Below are positions 36,702 through 43,793 of a stretch of 64,000 bases of DNA, piece by piece. Where the stretch lies: the NCBI RefSeq assembly GCF_003946405.1, contig NZ_RHOG01000011.1:1-64000 (forward strand), written 5' to 3'. A program made the translations under genes and the position numbers. Under the pieces are notes generated by a model that was not told the origin of the DNA, made no database searches, and saw only the letters and a list, made by a program, of their open reading frames with translations. Every line of letters begins with the position of its first letter. Position 1 is the stretch's first letter. This DNA is from Lacticaseibacillus yichunensis (lineage in GTDB: Bacteria; Bacillota; Bacilli; Lactobacillales; Lactobacillaceae).

Positions 36702-37817
36702 CTAATGATGGCGGGGCTTCAGGGTAAACTGCTTGTCATGCCAGTGCTTGACGTAGGCCTTCAGCGGACCGGATGTCACGCCAGCCGGCACCTCGACGCG
36801 GTAGGTCCCGCCGCGCAGCGTGGTGCTGGCCACGCCATCTGGGCCGGTCGTCAGCGTCGCCACGTGCTTGCGCCGACGCCGGACAACGAGCGAAGCGTCA
36901 GCTAGCGCGGCCCCGTCTGCGGTCAAGGCCGTGACACGCAGTTCATAGCGGCTGCCCGCCACCAGCAGGCCGCGAAGCAATAGCCAGATCACGCCGAGTA
37001 GCAGGATCCCGGCCAGCCCCCACGCTGCCAGCTTCAGTTTGTTCCAGCGCTCTGCCCAATTTGAAGCGGTCTTATCCGCCTTGGTGTAGGGGACCCGGCG
37101 GCCGGTGATCAGCAAGCGATGCGAGTTGATCATGTAAGGCGTGCACGTCATCAATGTTACCAGGTCCTGTCCCGGCTCGACCTTGAGCGAGCCGATATCA
37201 CTGGGGTCGATCGTCTGCCGCTTGAAGACCTGATAGGCCAGCGTTTTGTCACCGATCTTGATGAAAAATTTGGCGCCGTTTTTCAGCTCCGGCAGGCGGG
37301 TGAACAGCTCGGCATTGGGAATCCCGCGATGCGCGGAGATCACCGCGTGCGTATTTTTCCCGCCGGTCGGATAGCTCGTGCCGTCCAGCAGGCAGGCGCC
37401 GAATTGCAGCAACCAGTCCGTCGTGCGAGAAAAAACAGGTAGCGACACGCCGATCGTCGGAATGGTGAGTTGCGCGATCGTGTCATTTGTCAGCGTCTGT
37501 TGGTCGCGTTTGGCGCTGGTCTTTGCGGTGCCTTGCGCATTGACGGCCGTGTTGAACGCCGCCACGCCAGGCGCCGCACCAGTTTTCGCCAGCGCCGTAT
37601 TTTTGGCCTGATACTGTTTGTACTCGCGCTTCAAGGCCGCCGTATTCTTCTTCGTTTCGCGGACCTGATAGGCGTCGATCACCTGCTGATTTTTGTACGA
37701 GACATACGCATCCGACACGAAGGGATAGGCCAGCACCCCGATGCCGACGACGATCAGGAGCAAAATGATGATGTCGATCGCCCCAATCGGCTTTTTCGCT
37801 TTCTTTTTCGCCATCAT
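36702..37817 (-). CDS. srtC: Class C (pilin) sortase with C-terminal extension
   Basis: 371 residues. N-terminal membrane anchor at 12-32; catalytic H163 (ISAHRG), C225 (TLMTCTPY) and R234 (NSHRLLITGRR). A lid-like TTDW at 132-135 precedes the LLDGTSYPTGG block. A second membrane segment (264-285) is followed by about 85 residues resembling a carboxypeptidase-regulatory/SpaA-like beta-sandwich, unusual for a sortase. It would polymerise the LPHTG pilins encoded upstream. The preceding gap holds a terminator-like stem. GGAGGCAC precedes ATG 37817. Confidence 0.92.
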   Translation of the reverse strand: MMAKKKAKKPIGAIDIIILLLIVVGIGVLAYPFVSDAYVSYKNQQVIDAYQVRETKKNTAALKREYKQYQAKNTALAKTGAAPGVAAFNTAVNAQGTAKTSAKRDQQTLTNDTIAQLTIPTIGVSLPVFSRTTDWLLQFGACLLDGTSYPTGGKNTHAVISAHRGIPNAELFTRLPELKNGAKFFIKIGDKTLAYQVFKRQTIDPSDIGSLKVEPGQDLVTLMTCTPYMINSHRLLITGRRVPYTKADKTASNWAERWNKLKLAAWGLAGILLLGVIWLLLRGLLVAGSRYELRVTALTADGAALADASLVVRRRRKHVATLTTGPDGVASTTLRGGTYRVEVPAGVTSGPLKAYVKHWHDKQFTLKPRHH

Positions 37818-37895: not shown

Positions 37896-38984
37896 TTAGG
37901 CTGCGCGCCGCTTGTTGTAAGCCACGCCGCCAAGTGCGATCAGCGCCACGCCCAGCACGACAAAGGCCACGATGCCGGCGCCACCGGTATGCGGGAGAAT
38001 GCCTTCTGGGGTATCGGTGACGGTCGTTGCGTTATCGCCCGGCTTGACTGAAGCGTCCGCAGCCGCCTTGCCATCGATCGCCGCATCCTTGTTGTAGCCG
38101 TTTGGTGCCGCGACTTCTTCGATCGTGTAGGACTTGTCAGGATCAAGGCCTGTCAGCACGCCATCGACCGTTGCTTCTGGATTCGCCTCAAAGCCGAATT
38201 CGCCTTTGTCGTTGGAAACAAAGGTCGTTGCCTGGTCCCTCGTGCCCCAGGAAACATCGGAGGCGCCAGCTGGCAATTCGGTCAGCGCTGCATTTTCAGA
38301 ACCCTTGATGGCGGCATAGAGGTCGCCTTGCTTGATGTAGAACTTCGCACCGGCCAAAACAGTCTTGGTGTTCGTCTCGTCAACCTTGGTGAACTTCAAC
38401 TTATACGTCTTGTCGACTTGTTCCTTCGGATAAACATACGCCACGCCATCGGAAGCCGGCGCCTTCACAGGCAGGGAAAGCACGAAATCAAAGGAAGTCT
38501 TGTAGCCAGCCGGTGTCTTTGTTTCACGGAAAAGATAGACAGCGGGCTGACCATTTGAGGATTTAGGCAAGTCGAAGGTGACTTGCCCGTTCTGAGTCGT
38601 GTCGCTGAGGTCCGGCTTTGCATCTGTGAGGTCAAACACCGTGGTATGGCCGTTATCATCTGCCTGATTAGCATCCGCGGCAGTCAACGTACCATCCTTG
38701 ATCTTGCTCCAATACTGGGCCGTCACATCATACACGGAATACTCCGCACCATCGACACGGGCATTATTCGCCTTGTCCGCTGTTGCCGGCAACGTGTCGA
38801 CAGGGACAGGGTTGCCGGTCGGCTGATTGCTGGCCGAAACATACTTGGTCAGCGTCACCTTCTGTGTCTCGCCGTCCGCTTTGACCGTTGTTGCGTTGAG
38901 ACCATTGGCCGCCAGAGGCAATGCCAACAGGGCCGCACCGATCACGATCAGTGCTTTCTTTACAAGTGAATTCTTCATAATCAT
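37896..38984 (-). CDS. LPHTG pilin, likely major (SpaA/SpaD-like) subunit
   Basis: 362 residues from ATG 38984 (GGGGG five nt upstream; ATG 38978 is possible). Sec signal peptide to about residue 37. Pilin motif VYPKE supplies the lysine for polymerisation; the E-box YTIEEVAAPNGY and Cna-B/SpaA repeats suggest isopeptide bonds. C-terminus ILPHTGGAG, hydrophobic stretch, KRR. Being adjacent to the sortase, like spaA/spaD, it is probably the shaft. It is 29 bp from the gene upstream. Confidence 0.9.
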   Translation of the reverse strand: MIMKNSLVKKALIVIGAALLALPLAANGLNATTVKADGETQKVTLTKYVSASNQPTGNPVPVDTLPATADKANNARVDGAEYSVYDVTAQYWSKIKDGTLTAADANQADDNGHTTVFDLTDAKPDLSDTTQNGQVTFDLPKSSNGQPAVYLFRETKTPAGYKTSFDFVLSLPVKAPASDGVAYVYPKEQVDKTYKLKFTKVDETNTKTVLAGAKFYIKQGDLYAAIKGSENAALTELPAGASDVSWGTRDQATTFVSNDKGEFGFEANPEATVDGVLTGLDPDKSYTIEEVAAPNGYNKDAAIDGKAAADASVKPGDNATTVTDTPEGILPHTGGAGIVAFVVLGVALIALGGVAYNKRRAA

Positions 38985-39013: not shown

Positions 39014-40528
39014 TTAGTTAACTGATCTCCGGTTCCGATAACGAAGCGCCAGCACCAGTGCGATCACCACGACCCCGATGGCCGAAAGCCAAGAGGCCCA
39101 GGCGCTGCCGGTGTGTGGCAGGTAATCCCACAATTTTGGTGTTGGGTGGTGCGGTTGCGTGGGTGACACTGGTTTGTCCGGTGTCATGGGTGAAGCGACA
39201 TTCACGACCTTGTATGGATCCGTTTGGCCGCGCGTGTACTCCCCGGCTACGATCTGAAACGCAATGGCCTTGGTGTTTCGCACATAGCCAGCCGGCGCCC
39301 TGACTTCAACCAGCGAATAATGACCAGCGGCCAAGCCTTGAATGGCAAAACGCCCATCTTTTCCCGACGTCAGGGTGGCCAGGCCCGCCGCTTTGTACGA
39401 CGTGGTGATCGGCGCGGACACATTTTTCCACGCCCAGCCGTCCTTGGCCTTGATCAGGTAGGCACCCTGCTCGTTTTTCACCACGAAGACGGCGCCGGCC
39501 AATGGTTGTCCAGACTTCGCATCGACCTTGATGAACCGCTTGCCGCCGGTGACATCCACCGTGTAATCCTGTTGCGGGTCATCGCCGCCCGGATAGACGA
39601 TCGCGCGGTTGACCAGCAGCTCATCCGCTGGGGTGCCGGCCTTGATCGCCATGTCATAAGTGACGGTGATCGTTTTGCCGGCATCCCCCGTCAGCTGGGT
39701 GACGTCAAAGGCTAGGGAAAAACTGTGCGCAGTGGCATCGCGGACCCGATACAGCCCCGCAGTCGCCGTGACTGGCTGTCCGTCGATCGCCACATGAATG
39801 CCGCCGTGGCGGACAAGCTCGGCGTTGGCGCTGTCCGAAATGGTGAACGTCTTCAGCGCGCCGATATCCGCCGGCACCGTCACCGCGATCTTGTATGGAA
39901 TGGTTTCCCCATACGCGAAATTGGTGCGGTTCGCCGTGACGGTTTTCGCGATCGTCGTTTCGCCGCCGCTCACCACATTCTTTGGAAACAGATCGATCTG
40001 CGATTGAATCTGGCCGTCTGCCATCAGCGGCAACACAACGACCAAGTTTTGGCTCTGCCCATCAATGCCGGCGGGCGTGCCAGTTTCCTTGAACAGATAA
40101 ACCGCGTACTGCCCATTTTCGCGAAGCGTGAGGCCGGCGAACCGCGCTTCACCCGAGCCAGCCGTTTGGTGACTGACCACCGCTTGGCGCGAAAAATCGG
40201 CCTGCGTATTCGCAAAATGGGCCTGCGCCGCCGCCACATCATGGCCATCTGCGACATACGCCCAAAAATCGGTCGTGATGTCATACGCAGTGAAGGTCAC
40301 GCCATTCAGCGGGCGCGCGGACTGGCCAAAATCGGGAATGGCCGCACCGTCGTTGGCCTGTTTGTCCGGCAACGTCTCGTCGAAGAGCAGCTTGTGCAGG
40401 ACGATATCGACGGTCGTGGGCGCTTGTGTCTGAGCCGCGGCGGTTGCTTGCGCCGGGCTGAGCGCGACCCCAAGCAACATCAGGAACGCGGCGCCCACTG
40501 CAAGAAGTGCTTTCCATCGCTTACTCAT
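39014..40528 (-). CDS. LPHTG pilin, accessory or second backbone-like (504 aa)
   Basis: Start ATG 40528 with GGAGGTGCG upstream. Signal peptide ends near AQATAAA. Contains a pilin-type DLFPKN motif, a Cna-B-like domain with E-box YSLVEVRAPAGY, and the C-terminal anchor YLPHTGSAW..RYRNRR. The FPKN lysine means it could itself be polymerised; its middle position equals spaB/spaE. It overlaps the tip gene by eight bases. Confidence 0.88.
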   Translation of the reverse strand: MSKRWKALLAVGAAFLMLLGVALSPAQATAAAQTQAPTTVDIVLHKLLFDETLPDKQANDGAAIPDFGQSARPLNGVTFTAYDITTDFWAYVADGHDVAAAQAHFANTQADFSRQAVVSHQTAGSGEARFAGLTLRENGQYAVYLFKETGTPAGIDGQSQNLVVVLPLMADGQIQSQIDLFPKNVVSGGETTIAKTVTANRTNFAYGETIPYKIAVTVPADIGALKTFTISDSANAELVRHGGIHVAIDGQPVTATAGLYRVRDATAHSFSLAFDVTQLTGDAGKTITVTYDMAIKAGTPADELLVNRAIVYPGGDDPQQDYTVDVTGGKRFIKVDAKSGQPLAGAVFVVKNEQGAYLIKAKDGWAWKNVSAPITTSYKAAGLATLTSGKDGRFAIQGLAAGHYSLVEVRAPAGYVRNTKAIAFQIVAGEYTRGQTDPYKVVNVASPMTPDKPVSPTQPHHPTPKLWDYLPHTGSAWASWLSAIGVVVIALVLALRYRNRRSVN

Positions 40529-43500
40529 GGCGCACCTCCCGGCGAAAAGCCGCAACGATCAAGATCAGGAACCCGGCCAGCGCGAACATCGCCAAGGCCA
40601 TGACCAGGTACCGCGACACGCCACCGCCGCCGGTATGCGGCAAAATGGTCTGCGGCATGTTGGTGATGGTAGCGATGCCATCTGTTTTAGCCAGATTCTG
40701 CGCCTTTTTGTCACCCGGCGCATAGAACTCGACCGTGCCGTCCAGCTTGACCTTGATCGTGTACGCGCCGGTGCCGCGCAAATATCCCGTTGGCGCCGTG
40801 GTTTCCGTCAACGTATACGTGTGTCCAGCCTGAAGCCCCATAGCCGTCATATTCCATTTCTGGCCGGCCACGTTTTCAGACTTCAGGACAGCAGGGGCGG
40901 CATCGCTCGTCGTATCCTGGAGGCTGAACTGAGCGCCAGTCAACTGCGTCTTGTGGTTCCAATGATCCACTTTGTTGAGGTGAAAATTGACCGTCGTGCG
41001 CTTATCTGTGAAGGCGTACGTCATCGTTGTTGGGGCGTCGGCATCGACTGTCAGTGCCGGATCCTGAGACGCATTACCAAATGAGATCTCTCTTGGCGTC
41101 GCATCGACGTCATACCCATCCGGTGCCGTCTTTTCAACCAGCTCATAAGTCGTGTCGCGGTCAAGCGCTTGGGAAAATTGAACGTGGCCATCCGCATCAG
41201 TTGGCGCGGAGGTGATTGCTTTGTCCGGCTGGTCCTTCGGATACAAGGTGAAGATCGCCCCGGCCAGCGGTTTGCCTGTCGCCTCATCCTGCTTCAAAAC
41301 GTTGAGTTGCCACGATGGCGTATCGGTTTTAATGAAGTGCAGGACATTGCCAGCCGTCGACTCGCCACTACTTGAAACGTAAAACGAATCCTTGTCATAT
41401 ATGCTTGGTGTCTGAGTTGGGAGTGCAGATGGGACCCATTTCTTGTCTGCATTTTGACTCAGGTGTTGCCACTGATAATCAGTTGTTAGTTCAAATCGCG
41501 TAGGCGTGGCATCGAGCGAATAGCCAGTCGGCGCAACTGTTTCAGTGATCTCATAGACGCCTGGGGCCAGCGGCTGGGTCTGGTTTGCATCGGTGATCGT
41601 TGCGACTGGTGTTTTCGTCTCGGACCCATCTTCGGCTGTCGTGATCTGATCGAGCTTGAATGTTGCACCAGTCAGCGGAGCGTCCCCTGCCTTGGCGCCG
41701 GTGGCAACTTTTCTGACGTCGATCACGTGTTGTGTATTTGTGAGCGTAACTTGTGGATCGGTCGTAGACGTGAAATCAAGGTCGCCGTTTCCATCGAGAT
41801 CCCCAGTCAGGGTCGTACTGAATTCTTTCCCGGTTGACTGGCCATTGACCGTCGCCCCAACCTCTTTGACAACATACTTTGCAGTCGGCGAGAGCTTCTT
41901 AAACGTAGCCGTGAAATCGTTCGCCGCATTCAACGTGACCGGATCGCCAACGGGTTGGTCCTTCGTTTGCGATGTCCCGTCTGCGACTTGGTAGAGTTGA
42001 ACCGTCGCCTCGGCATTTTGCTGATCGACAGGGTCGCCTAAGTGCCAGACCTTCTTCACGGTTGCCTGAGCGAACTGCGTATTTTCGACCGTCCCGGTAT
42101 TTTCACCAGTGTAAGCCGAGAAGTTGAGGTCCCACCGGTGATTCGTATCGCCGCTGACCGCCACTGTGCGGCCAATGATCGAGCCAAACACGTGGGCACT
42201 TTGAACAACGAGATTCGCATCCGGGGCGAGAATCGACCCATAAAACGTATCATTACAGATTGAGATGGTCTGGCCATCTTTATAGCCATAAAAATTCCAG
42301 AGAATCTTCGCCTTGTTGAAGTCTTTCAGATCAGCGTCAGTGAGGCCCTCAAACGAGATATTGCCGGCATCCCCGGCGCTGATATCGGTACCATCGTAAT
42401 TTGAAAAATCGACATTGATAATGATCGGCCGTGAGTTGGGATCGTCAAAGTTGATCCCCGAGAAGTTGATGGCGCTCTTCGCTTCACCTTTTTCGCCAGC
42501 CAGTTGCTCCCACGTCAAGTTGACATAGGCGGCATCTGGCATGACGCCAGTGGTGAATTCATCGCTTGGTGCGGCATTGACGGCGTAGTTATAGTCGGCC
42601 GCCTGCTGGTCCTGCGGGAGTTCAACGAAGTAATACGTGCCCGGCGCGCTGACCGAGATATTGATCTGACCATTCTTATCTGTGGTCAGGACGTTTTTAT
42701 CCAGCCGATTATTTTGGCTATCAAAGACAGTGATCTTTGAAAAATCGACCGGGGTCAGTTGGCCATCATCGTCTTTTTGAACGAGCTGAAATTTGACGCC
42801 CGAGGTGATCGGCTTGCCATTCTCATCGACCTTCGTCAGTTGCAGTGGGTACATGAGCGGCCATTGTGAGTTGTCGGCTTCGGGATCTACGTCGATGTCT
42901 AGTTCATTGTCGTTTGTCTTCTGGTATGTTTTCCCTTTGCCAGCAAAGAGGTTGGAGACGGTCTCTAATTGCTGGAAAGTCTGATCAAGATCGATGAAGG
43001 GCTGATCAGCGGACTCTTGCGAAACATCGCCGATATGCAGCGCGTCCATCTTCTTGCCATCCAGAGTAAGGGTCGTCTCGCCTTGATTTTGACTAGCCAG
43101 ACCCACAGTGGTGTCTGCCCCTACGACGACTTGCTTAGAAGCAGAGCCAAACGCCGAAGCGGAAAAGCCATTGATATCATCGATCGTCTGAAAATAATTG
43201 ACATCGGTGCCCTTACCTGTAGTCGCGTTCACAGGCAACGGGCCAAGGTCGTCGGCAGTGTGCCAATCACTCGTTGCAGCGAGATCCTTTGTCGCCACAT
43301 TACCGTCCTGGCTAGACCCCAACGTGACCTTATCACGGCCAACAAGCGAAAAATGTTGGGCCGCGCCAAGGATGTCGTATTGTGTCGATGGATAGGTCTG
43401 GGCATACGTGCCTGCCGGTTGCGCGAGTGCCGAACCATCAGCCTTCGCCGTTTTCGCCGCGGGCATCACAAGTACCTGCCCGAGCAAAACAACGGACGCG

Positions 43501-43559
43501 CATAAGATCCGGGTCAGCCGCGTTACTATATTTGTATGACGATCCTTTGTCTCTGTCAT
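40521..43559 (-). CDS. Large LPHTG tip adhesin with choice-of-anchor-A-like domain
   Basis: 1012 residues from ATG 43559, chosen because GAGG lies six nt upstream; earlier ATGs lack a site. Signal peptide to about residue 42. The N-terminal half (YDILGAAQHFSLVG .. LWNFYGYKDGQTI .. GSILAPDANLVVQSAHVFGSIIG) fits the choice-of-anchor A (BsiA) fold seen in surface adhesins. The C-terminal half holds several Cna-B domains with E-boxes (YEITETVAPTGY, YELVEKTAPDGY, YTLTETTAPTGY) and ends ILPHTGGGG. First gene of the pilus operon, the usual position of a tip protein. Confidence 0.9.
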   Translation of the reverse strand: MTETKDRHTNIVTRLTRILCASVVLLGQVLVMPAAKTAKADGSALAQPAGTYAQTYPSTQYDILGAAQHFSLVGRDKVTLGSSQDGNVATKDLAATSDWHTADDLGPLPVNATTGKGTDVNYFQTIDDINGFSASAFGSASKQVVVGADTTVGLASQNQGETTLTLDGKKMDALHIGDVSQESADQPFIDLDQTFQQLETVSNLFAGKGKTYQKTNDNELDIDVDPEADNSQWPLMYPLQLTKVDENGKPITSGVKFQLVQKDDDGQLTPVDFSKITVFDSQNNRLDKNVLTTDKNGQINISVSAPGTYYFVELPQDQQAADYNYAVNAAPSDEFTTGVMPDAAYVNLTWEQLAGEKGEAKSAINFSGINFDDPNSRPIIINVDFSNYDGTDISAGDAGNISFEGLTDADLKDFNKAKILWNFYGYKDGQTISICNDTFYGSILAPDANLVVQSAHVFGSIIGRTVAVSGDTNHRWDLNFSAYTGENTGTVENTQFAQATVKKVWHLGDPVDQQNAEATVQLYQVADGTSQTKDQPVGDPVTLNAANDFTATFKKLSPTAKYVVKEVGATVNGQSTGKEFSTTLTGDLDGNGDLDFTSTTDPQVTLTNTQHVIDVRKVATGAKAGDAPLTGATFKLDQITTAEDGSETKTPVATITDANQTQPLAPGVYEITETVAPTGYSLDATPTRFELTTDYQWQHLSQNADKKWVPSALPTQTPSIYDKDSFYVSSSGESTAGNVLHFIKTDTPSWQLNVLKQDEATGKPLAGAIFTLYPKDQPDKAITSAPTDADGHVQFSQALDRDTTYELVEKTAPDGYDVDATPREISFGNASQDPALTVDADAPTTMTYAFTDKRTTVNFHLNKVDHWNHKTQLTGAQFSLQDTTSDAAPAVLKSENVAGQKWNMTAMGLQAGHTYTLTETTAPTGYLRGTGAYTIKVKLDGTVEFYAPGDKKAQNLAKTDGIATITNMPQTILPHTGGGGVSRYLVMALAMFALAGFLILIVAAFRREVRHE

Positions 43560-43617: not shown

Positions 43618-43641
43618 AAAAAGCCCCCGTCTCCGGAGGCT
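43618..43641 (-). terminator. Attenuator-type terminator in the pilus operon leader
   Basis: On the minus strand AGCCTCCG-GAGA-CGGGGGCT forms an 8-bp stem (one G-U) followed by TTTTT. It lies 59 nt upstream of the tip pilin ATG and downstream of the operon promoter, so it must be read through for pili to be made. Confidence 0.7.
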
Positions 43642-43694
43642 CACGTGAAGATAACAGCGCAAAGGGCCGCAAAAAAGATGGCCGAGATCACCAT
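43641..43694 (-). CDS. Candidate 17-aa leader peptide of the pilus operon
   Basis: ATG 43694 to TGA 43641: MVISAIFFAALCAVIFT. GGGGTG (43704-43709) lies nine nt upstream. The stop codon abuts the attenuator stem. The reading frame contains a T6 tract (43671-43676); gain or loss of one T would carry translation through the stem. The peptide is hydrophobic with no known relatives by eye. Confidence 0.4.
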   Translation of the reverse strand: MVISAIFFAALCAVIFT

Positions 43695-43728
43695 CCGTCG
43701 CTACACCCCAAAAAAGCCTGTTGCACCG

Positions 43729-43756
43729 TTAAAAAGTCTTCCCCCAAAGACTGTTA
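43729..43756 (-). other. Leader hairpin upstream of the leader peptide
   Basis: GTTAA..AGTCTT / AAGACT..TTAAC forms an AT-rich stem with T5 within the 3-prime arm, near the predicted transcript start. It might be a pause site or weak terminator. Confidence 0.45.
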
Positions 43757-43764
43757 ACTCGCCC

Positions 43765-43793
43765 AATATATCATCTAAAAATCACAGGTGCAA
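43765..43793 (-). promoter_or_regulatory. Promoter of the pilus operon
   Basis: Minus strand TTGCAC (43788-43793), 17-bp spacer, TATATT (43765-43770). About 200 nt of leader precede the tip gene. Confidence 0.6.

Follow-up and report, generated by a model that had tools for sequence, protein, structure and literature searches.

How is a pilus operon controlled when a predicted terminator stands between its promoter and its first gene? The question is raised by a 64,000-nucleotide stretch (the window) of a Lacticaseibacillus yichunensis draft assembly (2.56 Mb, 73 contigs), which encodes a sortase-dependent pilus operon on the minus strand (43559-36702) composed of a tip adhesin, two pilin-like subunits, and a sortase. 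The tip pilin or adhesin, with an ice-binding-like adhesive domain (40521-43559; pAdhesive_15, SpaA, and Cna_B domains, LPHTG), likely starts at ATG 43559, with GAGGA upstream, and is followed by a basal pilin-like subunit (39014-40528; GramPos_pilinD1, SpaA), a major pilin-like subunit (37896-38984; GramPos_pilinD1, SpaA, LPHTG), and a class C-like pilus sortase (36702-37817). Little is known of how lactobacilli control pilus production, and the spaFED region of L. rhamnosus revealed no control element when studied at the sequence level.

A constrained leader upstream of the tip-pilin gene

The initial annotation proposed a promoter, a 17-codon leader peptide, and an intrinsic terminator ahead of the tip-pilin gene, and each was recovered in that order. 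The promoter (43765-43793, minus strand) consists of TTGCAC (43793-43788) and TATATT (43770-43765) with a spacing of 17 nt, the latter forming part of an extended -10 element (TGATATATT). Transcription is predicted to start at ~43758 and to yield a leader transcript of 43758-43618. Within this transcript, folding and comparison delineate a 5' hairpin, P1 (43735-43752; AGUCUU-UGGGGG-AAGACU), ~6 nt from the predicted start, followed by a self-closed linker domain, P2 (43652-43731), and a predicted intrinsic terminator (43618-43642; GAGCCTCCG-GAGA-CGGGGGCTT; -15.9 kcal/mol), with its stem at 43642-43621 and its U-tract at 43622-43618. This predicted terminator would be premature, as it lies before the first pilus gene. 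Taken singly, it does not stand out: 12 kb contained 18 terminator-like sites, with 13.7 expected. The fold of the entire leader was more stable than those of shuffled sequences (z -3.0).

The related-locus search with the tip protein returned L. mingshuiensis alone, the closest relative found, with ~95% identity across the pilus operon. No change was recorded in 188 leader bases (43752-43565) between the two genomes, including P2, whereas the intergenic DNA upstream differed by 8.2% (p 5e-6 against the leader) and the pilin gene by 3.1% (p 0.01). Invariance of the leader amid differing flanking DNA means that something in it is under constraint, which, in this comparison of two genomes, may act on the RNA or on the peptide. 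Among the features of the window, it is the leader taken whole that goes beyond chance, and not the terminator, the T tract discussed below, or the open frames singly.

A shared 5' hairpin and its predicted pairing with unlike terminators

Searching the genus for related DNA returned short matches to window positions 43774-43733 in other species. These leaders have a common architecture: a -10 element, usually extended, then ~12-18 nt, P1, a variable linker, an intrinsic terminator, and a surface-protein gene. The P1 consensus, AGUCUUYGGGGGARGACUUU, lies within ~10 nt of the predicted start, and the extended -10 (TGnTATATT) is retained in most other leaders carrying P1, while the sequence of P2 is not conserved between species. 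Using a covariance model and a refined version of it, we located 11 copies of the P1 element in 6 of 30 Lacticaseibacillus genomes, with the leader present in five species other than that of the window; G011 carries three copies, and G001, G004, and G013 two each.

The genes downstream of the leader are diverse. Tips with an ice-binding-like adhesive domain follow it in the window, G001a, G004a, and G011a, a vWA/GBS104-type tip in G007, and an L-type lectin tip in G001b, one of two tandem pilus operons in G001 that each have their own leader. At G013:C3 (L032:1-2541), the leader precedes a KxYKxGKxW adhesin that lacks close relatives among the remaining 29 genus genomes. Because in five other species this leader stands ahead of pilus and adhesin genes that are unrelated, an on/off control element is favored over a slippery-repeat switch. 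No conserved regulator gene was seen beside the leader-bearing operons, whose neighborhoods differ.

Two copies depart from the common architecture. At L067:6750-6803 (G004:C1), an orphan leader and terminator sit directly behind a pilus sortase gene with no pilin after them; since the corresponding place in G001 is occupied by a second pilus operon, G004 has probably lost its second operon and kept the leader. The other copy of the 5' element, at L061:9272-9326 (G011:C5), leads into an IS30-type transposase gene that seems to have taken the place of the terminator part.

The P1 element was absent from 37 other genus pilin regions, some of which are cut off where their contig stops. Outside the genus, no convincing copy occurred in 399 family or 396 order genomes, sets that include genus members and were searched with stricter filters, such that distant members may be missed, and plasmid and phage collections yielded nothing relevant. 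Pattern matches in other genera and weak model matches in G010, G017, G060, G029, G560, and G567 fell in coding DNA or lacked the leader architecture and were judged chance, as was GYCTTYGGGGGARGACTTT, found in four near-identical viral contigs just before the start of an unrelated gene and with no terminator. A different arrangement was seen in two species of genus g15 (L056 and L058, ~1500), where an extended -10, GTTAC, and a TTGGGGG start are followed by a CCCCC hairpin and T-tract ahead of one and the same lipoprotein-like gene; this very short leader terminator is perhaps another attenuator.

Although the terminators of P1-bearing leaders differ from one another, in each of the 10 leaders with a terminator the leader segment most complementary to the P1 core lay at that terminator's 5' arm or foot. 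In the window, GUCUUUGGGGG (43751-43741) would pair with CCUCCGGAGAC (43639-43629), which lies inside the terminator hairpin, the two forming the 5' and 3' strands of a predicted antiterminator; the equivalent pairings are UUGGGGGAAGAC with GUCUUUUCCCAA in G001a, GGGGGAAGGC with GCUUUCCCCC in G007, and UUGGGGGAAG with CUUCUUCCAA in G004a. Cognate core-terminator duplexes surpassed those with 189 control terminators, namely other terminators from leader-bearing loci (Fisher p 6e-6, eight leaders), and predicted pairing surpassed that of the dinucleotide-shuffled upstream leader part (p 6e-5, nine leaders), though C-rich terminator arms favor pairing to any G-run and the kinship of the leaders makes the tests not fully independent. 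In 8 of the 10, the P1 core was the best arm-pairing 16-mer, with no equal elsewhere in the leader. Considered singly, support for the antiterminator was fairly clear in G001a, G007, G004a, G013b, and the window, weak in G001b and G004b (the orphan), and partly so in G011a and G011c.

Equilibrium folding of the growing window transcript gave P1 (0.98), next the antiterminator (0.95), and next the terminator (0.86), and the finished terminator and antiterminator states were 1.4 kcal/mol apart. Most leaders behaved comparably, the long-range antiterminator reaching at least 0.6 once the terminator arm appears and finally giving way to terminator plus P1. In the P1 alignment, 92.5% of cells were paired with little covariation, as the sequence hardly varies; the helix shows only one compensatory change, and a third pair fails in 3 of 9 copies. 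Prediction and comparison thus describe mutually exclusive structures of which one is a terminator, the defining feature of a terminator/antiterminator leader RNA.

Together, these data point to the leader as a transcription attenuator whose outcome would depend on competition among three RNA structures, with no leading role for a peptide, a reading we hold to be somewhat better than an even bet. P1 (43752-43735) would form first as the RNA emerges. Synthesis of the terminator's 5' arm would then offer the G-rich P1 core (43751-43741) an alternative partner (43639-43629); by opening its hairpin to pair there, the core could create an antiterminator around the closed P2, allowing transcription of the operon. 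Were P1 instead kept closed, the terminator would form and transcription would end at ~43618, the choice being set by some factor that holds or opens P1. Comparison of sequences shows conservation of the P1 sequence, its 5' position near the start, its complementarity to unlike terminators, and constraint on the leader; termination, read-through, competition in the cell, and a factor recognizing P1 are what we infer from the model. Since conservation extends to P1 but not to P2, the signal is most likely a diffusible factor recognizing the UUYGGGGGAR hairpin, presumably a protein, with a small RNA or metabolite less likely.

Peptide, operator, and antitermination alternatives

The initial annotation suggested a different switch, in which one T gained or lost in a T6 tract shifts the frame of the leader peptide; ribosomes would then open the terminator. 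Such a mechanism is known from pil1 of Streptococcus gallolyticus, where 22 GCAGA repeats confer phase variation by ribosome-driven terminator opening (PMC3894217). Its sequence premises hold: the 17-codon ORF (MVISAIFFAALCAVIFT, 43694-43641) ends in a TGA that overlaps the terminator stem at its outermost base pairs, T6 is exactly 43676-43671, and both T5 and T7 read through the terminator, the former giving a 35-residue peptide that extends past it and the latter remaining open up to the end of the stretch tested. A Shine-Dalgarno-like GGGGTG also precedes the ORF start (ATG 43694) by 9 nt, with an energy (-8.5 kcal/mol) matched by only 3.6% of ATGs in the window. However, the pil1 OFF state requires a stop 39-49 bp short of the terminator, whereas ON frames stop within or next to it (PMC3894217). 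The T6 stop overlaps the terminator and T5 and T7 pass through it, so by this rule all three alleles would be ON, and no frame among them stops well before the terminator. The leader contains no tandem repeats of the GCAGA type but T6 tracts only, and the tract is identical in L. mingshuiensis, the sole close relative (two genomes compared), as is the leader's other T6 (43715-43710). The window contains 55 runs of at least six A/T in 64 kb, making T6 ordinary, and two frames staying open across ~40 nt is not unusual. Directly upstream of T6, a GATGG..CCATC stem (43696-43677) makes the tract fit equally well as the U-tract of a small hairpin, and the two resemble a second, weaker terminator or pause site within the leader. 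The 17-codon ORF is present only in the window genome and L. mingshuiensis, and no ORF of matching sequence, frame, or length was found in homologous leaders of other species. An attenuating leader before the pilus operon is therefore well supported, but the slippery-tract peptide mechanism is not, and we regard pil1-like phase variation as very improbable. Translation of the window ORF, and a ribosome role without phase variation, are possible given its SD-like site. Ribosomes positioned at the P1 core, acting as an SD, or on the leader ORF could in this way decide between antiterminator and terminator, and six leaders have a GTG or TTG start located 5-10 nt beyond the P1 G-run, for which the SD energies are -8.4 to -11.3 kcal/mol. 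Yet these ORFs vary in start codon, length, frame, and composition, none is present in G001a, and conservation of CUUYGGGGGARG exceeds what an SD site needs, leaving ribosome-mediated attenuation quite unlikely.

The near-palindromic sequence of P1, its position adjoining the start site, and its scant covariation would also suit a DNA operator or a 5' mRNA-stabilizing hairpin, with the terminator serving as a constant attenuator uncoupled from P1. This arrangement leaves unexplained why complementarity between the P1 core and the terminator rises above two controls, and we consider it unlikely, if a serious contender. LoaP systems place a leader hairpin ahead of a long operon, and P1 likewise sits near the beginning of such a leader, before a long surface-structure operon, where a specialized NusG paralog could load for processive antitermination. 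However, no Lacticaseibacillus protein scored above the NCBIfam LoaP cut-off, the genomes giving one ordinary NusG-like match each. LoaP at this leader is thus largely refuted and its probability slight in the extreme, while another antitermination factor is possible.

Relation to known leader RNAs and pilus systems

Searched against 4227 Rfam families with covariance models, the window leader and ten family loci gave chance-level matches only, none at the gathering score, and no description of a P1-type leader was found among the papers searched. The leader is probably a peptide-independent attenuator and probably represents a new leader-RNA family. The fuller proposal, that this family is new and so far restricted to Lacticaseibacillus and that a factor-recognized P1 sets termination or read-through of the downstream adhesin or pilus operon, is tentative, and we place it somewhat short of even. 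If true, a single signal could act on several surface structures at once in the genomes with two or three copies. A leader RNA shared by different pilus and adhesin genes would offer a defined and readily testable point of control, as well as a route to the regulator, in these food-related bacteria, whose adhesion is governed by pili.

Among pilus systems, L. rhamnosus GG belongs to the same genus, and its spaFED and spaCBA operons are of a related type; no terminator between the promoter and spaF and no pil1-like features were reported there (PMC4240662, PMC5536039). The window leader resembles pil1 and pil3 of S. gallolyticus in having a premature terminator between the promoter and the first sortase-dependent pilus gene and a short leader ORF (PMC3894217). 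Unlike pil1, it has neither repeats nor a conserved peptide, its stop already lies in the terminator, and it carries instead a conserved 5' hairpin complementary to that terminator.

Terminator/antiterminator leaders are a known kind of control element. In coupling a 5' element to a terminator by mutually exclusive pairing, the P1 leaders resemble riboswitches, T-boxes, and protein-controlled attenuators, but they differ from known leader RNAs of this kind in that the conserved part is just a hairpin of ~20 nt and the middle domain is variable.
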